Assembly (NCBI GenBank): GCA_028280965.1
Contig: JANQKT010000124.1
Location: 1 to 39,849, forward strand
Source: Phycisphaeraceae bacterium
GTDB taxonomy: Bacteria > Planctomycetota > Phycisphaerae > Phycisphaerales > Phycisphaeraceae
Reading direction: 5' to 3'
Length of the DNA stretch: 39,849 bases
The notes below the pieces were generated by a model. The model was not told the origin of the DNA, ran no database searches, and was given only the letters and a program-made list of their open reading frames with translations. The position numbers and the translations under genes are program-made. Shown here in pieces: positions 22,065-22,938 of this stretch. How positions within the stretch are numbered: the first letter of the stretch is position 1; every line of letters begins with the position of its first letter.

Positions 22065-22143
22065 GTGTCGCGGGAGACGCGCAGCGTCCCGTGCGGATGA
22101 TCTATCACGATTTGCACCGGACGCTGCGCGTCTCCCGCGAAAC
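22065..22143. repeat. 79-bp palindromic element, copy 1
   Basis: Arms of about 34 bp fold back around an 11-nt loop. Bases 22068-22089 pair perfectly with 22119-22140. The element begins GTGTC and ends GAAAC. It shares 67 of 79 positions with the copy at 22514-22592. It fills most of the gap between the lactonase-like gene and the SUI1 gene, ending 12 bp before the SUI1 start codon. Confidence 0.9.
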
Positions 22144-22155
22144 TGGTGGAAACCC

Positions 22156-22509
22156 ATGCCCGGACTTTTTAGCGGAACCAGCTTTGAACAACCCGTCACC
22201 TGTGCGGTCTGTGAGAAGATACTCGACGATTGCATTTGCCCGCGCGACGCCGATGGCAACAGCTGCCCGCCCGCGGACCAGCCCGCGCGCGTCCGCCGGG
22301 AGAAACGCCGGGGCAAGTGGGTCACCGTCGTCACCGGCCTGGACCCGGCGGCGACGGACCTGAAGCAGCTGGCCAAGCAGGCGAGGGCCGCGTGCTCGGC
22401 GGGCGGGTCGGCGACCGACGACGGCATCGAGGTCCAGGGCGACCACCGCGACAAGCTTGTCCAGATGCTCAAAGAAAAGGGCTATCCCGCGAAGCCGGCG
22501 GGGGGTTGA
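22156..22509 (+). CDS. SUI1/eIF1-family translation factor (YciH-like)
   Basis: This 117-residue protein has the SUI1 domain in its C-terminal half: RREKRRGKWVTVVTGLDP, then LAKQARAACSAGGSATDDGIEVQGDHRDKLVQMLKEKGY, the conserved GxxVxxGxIEIQGDxRD-type core. In E. coli the family member YciH influences start-site fidelity; eukaryotic eIF1 does the same. The N-terminus has four Cys in a CxxC-x6-CxC cluster (residues 16, 19, 26, 28) likely to bind zinc, as in many bacterial SUI1 proteins. The gene lies between two copies of a 79-bp hairpin element. Only GGAAA lies upstream of the ATG as a weak ribosome-binding site. Confidence 0.88.
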   Translation: MPGLFSGTSFEQPVTCAVCEKILDDCICPRDADGNSCPPADQPARVRREKRRGKWVTVVTGLDPAATDLKQLAKQARAACSAGGSATDDGIEVQGDHRDKLVQMLKEKGYPAKPAGG

Positions 22510-22513
22510 CCCC

Positions 22514-22592
22514 GTTTCACGGGTGACGCGCAGCGTCCCATGCGATTGATCTATCATGATTCGCATGGGACGCTGCGCGTCACCGGCGAAAC
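22514..22592. repeat. 79-bp palindromic element, copy 2
   Basis: Bases 22522-22545 pair perfectly with 22561-22584 (24 bp) around a 15-nt loop. The outer ends GTTTC and GAAAC also pair. It lies 4 bp after the SUI1 stop and ends 31 bp before the Dabb gene. Two of the differences from copy 1 are paired changes that keep the stem intact. Confidence 0.92.
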
Positions 22593-22623: not shown

Positions 22624-22938
22624 ATGCCCGCCTTCCTGCATACCGTCCATTTCTGGCTCAAGGACGAGCTGACCGATGACCAGAAGCACGAGGTGCTCGA
22701 GGGGGTCCGCGCACTTGCGGAGAGCCCGAACGTCGCCCGCGTGAGCGTGCGCGTCCCCGCCGGTACGCCGCGCGAGGTCGTGGACAACAGCTACGACATC
22801 CAACTCGTCTGCGAGTTCGACAGCGAAGAACTGCACGCCGCCTACCAGTCTCCCGACGACGCGGTCCACCAGGCGTTTGTGCAGAACCACAAAGACAAGT
22901 GGACGAAGGTGCTGATCTACGACTCGGTCCGGGCGTGA
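22624..22938 (+). CDS. Dabb (stress-responsive alpha/beta barrel) protein
   Basis: This 104-residue protein is a single Dabb domain, a dimeric ferredoxin-like barrel. The N-terminal strand HTVHFWLKDELTDDQKHEVLEGVRAL carries the conserved His and Phe-Trp. A later YDIQLVCEFDSEELHAAYQSPDDAVHQAFVQ stretch is typical, with the family's paired H-x-x-F near the end. Dabb proteins occur alone or fused to enzymes, and most lack a known role. AAGGA precedes the ATG at 22624 by 8 nt, so this start is preferred over the frame from 22540, which runs through the hairpin element. Confidence 0.88.
   Translation: MPAFLHTVHFWLKDELTDDQKHEVLEGVRALAESPNVARVSVRVPAGTPREVVDNSYDIQLVCEFDSEELHAAYQSPDDAVHQAFVQNHKDKWTKVLIYDSVRA

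Follow-up and report, generated by a model that had tools for sequence, protein, structure and literature searches.

The window, which here means the whole stretch of 39,849 nucleotides analysed from a Phycisphaeraceae bacterium, carries a small SUI1-domain gene between two similar hairpins. The question that this locus raises is whether these hairpins are RNA structures controlling SUI1 and the adjacent Dabb gene or MITE- or REP-like mobile repeats, both of which had been put forward in an earlier note on this DNA. Our answer is that they are very probably REPINs, i.e., non-autonomous mobile elements consisting of inverted REP pairs, and that they belong to a family with a cognate RAYT in the Phycisphaeraceae. 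All coordinates are positions in the window unless a locus is named, and G000 denotes the window's own genome. The features are as follows.

22065 to 22143, plus strand: copy 1, read as a REPIN, between the lactonase-like gene and SUI1 (fold and model match; the orthologous site is empty in the relatives G003 and G004)
22065 to 22092, plus strand: REP unit 1a, with tag GTCG at 22067-22070 and small hairpin GACGC-GCA-GCGTC at 22076-22088 (consensus of 154 arms)
22093 to 22115, no strand: loop or spacer of copy 1, its outer bases loosely paired (family alignment)
22116 to 22143, minus strand: REP unit 1b, inverted, with tag TTCG on the minus strand at 22138-22141 (alignment and arm consensus)
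22156 to 22509, plus strand: SUI1-domain gene between the copies, a neighbour outside the element (Pfam PF01253)
22514 to 22592, plus strand: copy 2, read as a REPIN, between SUI1 and Dabb (fold and model match; G003 has a family member at this position)
22514 to 22541, plus strand: REP unit 2a, with tag TTCA at 22516-22519 (family alignment)
22542 to 22564, no strand: loop or spacer of copy 2 (family alignment)
22565 to 22592, minus strand: REP unit 2b, inverted, with tag TTCG on the minus strand at 22587-22590 (family alignment)

The description from which the question arose was largely reproduced. Each element is 79 bp long, the two agree at 67 of 79 positions, and two differences are double changes that preserve pairing, namely 11/69 (A-T versus T-A) and 27/53 (G-C versus A-T). 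The SUI1 ATG lies 12 bp past copy 1, and copy 2 begins 4 bp past the SUI1 stop. The neighbouring genes are a lactonase-like gene, SUI1, Dabb and a methionine sulfoxide reductase gene, with SUI1 (PF01253, E 5e-21) and Dabb (PF07876, E 1e-12) confirmed by Pfam. Folding gives both copies an energy of about -61 to -64 kcal/mol, with z-scores of -9.6 to -12.9 on either strand, and none of 200 shuffles folds equally well. The strong folds thus stand, but the earlier stem length of about 34 bp is an upper figure, because several pairs (3/77, 6/74, 8/72, 26/54, 31/49, 32/48, 33/47 and 36/44) are disrupted in one copy only. Similarly, the shared loop core GATCTATCA(C/T)GAT is present, yet it is merely the loose loop consensus of a whole family and is not peculiar to this pair. 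Rfam returned chance-level matches only.

This family is large. In G000 (4.16 Mb), a similarity search with the window element scored at least 40 places, a covariance model built from 40 copies gave at least 149 matches on both strands, and the regions fetched around matches hold at least 77 distinct full two-armed copies; the sister species G003 has 48 distinct two-armed elements, and all of these copy counts are lower bounds. The half-unit GGGNGACGCGCAGCGTCCC, allowing up to three mismatches, matches 248 times, as against 14 for a reversed-pattern control. Contigs L164, L171, L175, L177, L196 and L022 start or end within an element, as expected of repeats that break short-read assembly, and therefore the true copy number is probably higher. 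The model detects elements in all five members of the genus and in G013, G015, G018 and G065, and finds none in the remaining 42 of the 51 family genomes. Further copies in the genome and its relatives had been named beforehand as the evidence to look for, and of the mobile repeats envisaged it is the REP-like kind that is borne out.

The anatomy of the copies points in the same direction. Over 154 arms, the consensus of the unit is GT(G/T)T(C/A)GCGGG(N)GACGCG(N)AGCGTCCC, conserved at 88-99% save at positions 3, 5, 11 and 18, and conservation drops beyond position 26. The unit comprises a tag at positions 3-6, (G/T)T(C/A)G, and a small hairpin, GACGC-GCA-GCGTC, with a GG/CC pairing beyond a one-base bulge at position 11. 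The long hairpin is two such REP units inverted around a looser loop, which is the REPIN/BIME anatomy described in PMC3116915 and PMC3733652. The two window hairpins are thus ordinary members of a dispersed family and not a dedicated device of SUI1. The family itself is apparently a new REPIN family of an already known kind; 24 REP families are described in PMC3733652. A literature search, with most subscription journals outside its scope, found no prior description of REP concerted evolution or of Phycisphaera palindromes.

Copies lie mostly between genes and close to gene ends. Of 70 copies with both flanks judged, 66 lie between called genes and four overlap one. The elements of G000 sit between 29 convergent, 33 tandem and four divergent gene pairs, whereas about 12, 38 and 16, respectively, would be expected from base counts of element-free intergenic DNA at the same loci; in G003 the numbers are 20, 26 and one. 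The distance to a stop codon is at most 20 bp on 83 of 91 stop sides in G000. Gene context was taken from a purpose-made codon-usage caller, checked by eye against the Pfam-supported genes of the window; this caller placed the start of Dabb within copy 2, at 22540, instead of at 22624. Other REPs are reported to have the same placement at gene ends (PMC3733652).

A candidate enzyme has also been identified: the search for a RAYT with matching ends, proposed in the earlier note, led to an element-flanked gene in G000. It lies at C177 (L093:831-1427), encodes 198 aa and was found by a search with the G003 protein, to which it is 70% identical; elements stand on either side, at L093 725-821 and 1442-1543. 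The orthologues in G003 and in G015, which belongs to another genus, also have an element on both sides (L062, L069), and these two proteins first surfaced in a search of relatives for Y1 transposases. Linkage of this kind is the defining trait of a REPIN-RAYT system, and we assign the family to such a system accordingly. The HUH, W and Y..NP motifs (H105, H107, W159, Y175, NP) are invariant in 12 relatives. The NCBIfam model for REP-associated tyrosine transposases matches with E-values of 3e-14 to 6e-13, but at 53-60 bits, under its 80-bit cut-off, and the Pfam score is at or under cut-off in two of the three RAYT genomes; the activity of the enzyme is uncertain for this reason. A profile of the RAYT family matches IS200 transposases (E 4e-5) and, weakly, E. 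coli TnpA-REP 4er8 (E 0.003), and PHROGs returned no match. Modelled by itself with AlphaFold, the G015 RAYT gave a mean pLDDT of 52 and a best Foldseek E of 0.003 with poor TM-scores, and this model was not used as evidence. The family is most likely copied by this single RAYT gene, bracketed by the same repeats.

G000 has a single RAYT of the close subfamily, together with two distant Y1 proteins (L059, L060). The latter were found first, and were rejected as the cognate enzyme since no such element lies nearby. The L059 protein (L059:1944-2438, plus strand) is RAYT-like and scores 100.9 bits, above the 80-bit NCBIfam cut-off for REP transposases, and a different hairpin of 98 bp (AGGGGGACAGGCATTCCTGCCTGTC...) lies about 30-130 bp downstream of it; the two are possibly a second REP system. 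By eye, an rRNA operon seems to precede the RAYT of G000 immediately, as L093:1-720 contains 23S-end-like and 5S-like sequence. No RAYT of the close subgroup was found in G001, G002 or G004, yet some copies of the element are present there; as two of these three assemblies are nearly complete, either the RAYT must have been lost there or another enzyme must be at work. More widely, long hairpins occur in the flanks at 16 of 24 RAYT loci, with stems that vary by locus and a GTTTAGCG-like start that recurs in many. RAYT relatives across the order (L095, L096, L099, L104, L107, L111, L112, L114 and L115) are flanked by long hairpins with differing stems, many of them beginning with GTTTAGCG or GTTAGC, and hairpin arms of the GAAGCGCCGCG type are found at L103, L107 and L111.

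The two sites beside SUI1 have different histories. Copy 1 is missing from G003 and G004, where the SUI1 start follows the lactonase stop after only about 5-8 bp, which implies either a gain in the lineage of the window or loss in the others. At this junction the window is about 100 bp longer than G004, without a duplication. The slot after SUI1 holds a family member in G003, an unrelated long hairpin in G004 (L090; arms ACTGGCTTGGGTGC / GCACCCAAGCCAGT), which may be another repeat family, and other GC-rich hairpins in G001 and G002. The hairpin that occupies this slot thus differs from one relative to another.

The double changes that first drew attention to the pair can be explained either by ancestry or by selection on RNA, and the latter would make the hairpins cis-acting structures whose pairing is maintained by selection on the SUI1 and Dabb transcripts. 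The very stable folds, the placement just past stop codons and the presence of some hairpin after SUI1 in the relatives read are what one would expect of such structures, as is covariation of the whole structure above that of shuffles and slides. The proposed covariance test therefore gave the excess over shuffles, but not the spread along the stem: double-change cells fall mostly at columns 3/84 and 11/76, and a per-position test of arm agreement shows that symmetric variation in both G000 and G003 is carried by positions 3, 11 and 18, with position 4 being borderline in each genome (p 0.02-0.03, from one or two symmetric cases). Positions 3, 11 and 18 are the tag, bulge and loop of the REP and are unpaired in its hairpin. 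At positions 1, 2, 6, 7, 8, 17 and 26, by contrast, G000 has 68 one-arm changes and no symmetric change; bases of the small hairpin are doubly constrained, so the test is weaker there, but this does not apply to positions such as 1, 2, 6 and 8. On the transcribed strand of tandem sites, G-U mismatches (32) are no commoner than A-C mismatches (30). Because compensation is confined to three REP positions, one arm decays alone elsewhere and G-U is not favored, we attribute the double changes to palindromic parents from which the elements were copied, and not to RNA selection on SUI1. Compensatory changes are reported to be common in REPINs (PMC3116915), and the pattern fits copying from symmetric REP variants followed by decay arm by arm. 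Descent from distinct, already palindromic parents, one of the two possibilities raised earlier, is thus the one that held. Considering also that copy 1 is missing from two sister species and that the family is scattered across many unrelated genes, we regard control of SUI1 and Dabb by RNA structure as very unlikely.

A location after stop codons and between convergent genes, along with the unrelated GC-rich hairpins after SUI1 in G001 and G002, would also suit intrinsic terminators, bidirectional between convergent genes and multiplied via chance similarity or duplication. The flanks of the copies lack a T-run, as at least five T in an 8-base window starting 0-3 bases past the hairpin occur in only 13 of 151 G000 flanks, and a terminator scan reports none of the copies, though its loop limit of 8 excludes the family loop. 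This explanation, which leaves both the identity between copies and the element-flanked RAYT unaccounted for, is more improbable still, while the copies could have a secondary role in ending transcripts. The least probable explanation, with next to no chance of being correct, is that the family is a MITE and depends on a classical DDE transposase: the elements are short and dispersed and have long terminal inverted repeats, but no target-site duplication is seen by eye in the flanks, nor in the comparison with the empty site of copy 1, where the window has roughly 100 bp of extra DNA. REP anatomy of the unit and linkage to an enzyme of the Y1 HUH type also speak against a MITE of this kind.

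The REPIN reading, in contrast, draws together the size and anatomy of the family, a RAYT with flanking elements in three genomes, placement at gene 3' ends and presence or absence at one site. The enzymology, mobility and effect on expression of the REPIN-RAYT system are what we infer from these sequences. The RAYT at C177 of G000 would recognize the REP unit, i.e., the tag plus the small bulged hairpin, in single-stranded DNA, cut it and spread copies. Insertion, survival or both would favor gene 3' ends, leaving copies a few bases past stop codons, and both arms would derive from one REP variant, giving rise to double changes that preserve pairing. Should SUI1 or Dabb be affected at all, for example through slowed termination or 3'-end protection, this would be incidental to having a strong hairpin beside a stop codon. 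Against the REPIN reading stand the low scores of the RAYT, the copies in G001, G002 and G004, and the main tags of G000, GTCG and TTCG, which depart from the canonical GTAG.

This departure is part of a difference between sister species. Among 154 arms in G000 the tags are GTCG (65), TTCG (39) and TTAG (17), and among 96 arms in G003 they are GTAG (78) and TTAG (11); TTAG prevails in the small number of copies seen from G002, G004, G015 and G018, and the one copy seen from G001 has TTCG. At 18 flank-matched sites, of which 14 have support from both flanks, two have it from one flank and two lie beside the RAYT, the third tag base is C in 33 of 36 G000 arms and A in 33 of 36 G003 arms (for example, L173 versus L217 and L013 versus L206). 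At shared sites, neither the loops nor the other arm variants match significantly better than in random pairs (p 0.07, 0.12 and 0.95), and both were set aside as proof of vertical inheritance; some pairs align better in opposite orientation. The difference arises from either re-occupation of slots or homogenization in place. A tentative scenario, which we consider possible but rather doubtful, is that REPINs are homogenized or replaced in place, arm by arm, tracking a change in RAYT specificity, with fixed 3'-end slots taken again and again by whichever REP type is current. In one REP system, the tag is reported to contribute to the choice of cleavage site (PMC8266576), and a tag switch could therefore carry mechanistic meaning.

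These findings add a complete REPIN-RAYT system, repeats plus a likely transposase, for the Phycisphaerales, where relatives pair different REP stems with different RAYTs. They also show that palindromic ancestry can account for a striking pair of hairpins with seemingly compensatory changes, so that RNA structures should be called with caution where repeats are palindromic. A natural test of RAYT-REP coevolution is offered by the species-wide difference in tags between the sisters.

Among known systems, the closest in architecture are the REPINs of Pseudomonas fluorescens SBW25 (Bertels and Rainey 2011, PMC3116915), which are likewise inverted REP doublets forming one hairpin of similar length, with a looser spacer, a REPIN-flanked RAYT and compensatory changes, and which number about 100 copies. 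However, the sequence of the present family is unrelated, its host is a planctomycete, and its symmetric changes concentrate at three positions. The family also resembles the GTAG-tagged REPs (Di Nocera 2013, PMC3733652), already reported from Planctomycetes: a tag adjoins a short hairpin whose loop is small, and the units mostly form inverted head-head dimers near gene 3' ends between convergent or tandem genes. The tag of G003 is a perfect GTAG, whereas those of G000 are mainly GTCG or TTCG; GTMG is among the variants reported for GTAG-tagged REPs, and TTCG is not. A bulge in the stem, as in the REP unit of G000, is found in E. coli REPs. The enzyme is similar to TnpA-REP/RAYT, class 2 of the TnpA-Y1 superfamily (PMC6006769; E. 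coli TnpA-REP 4er8), in its HUH (DHxH), W and Y..NP motifs, its length of about 200 aa and its flanking REPs. Its YVExNP motif and N-terminal YGFWLPNDPRGSW block match no subclass line in Table 1 of PMC6006769, and, judged by these motifs, the RAYT of G000 probably represents a subclass absent from that table.
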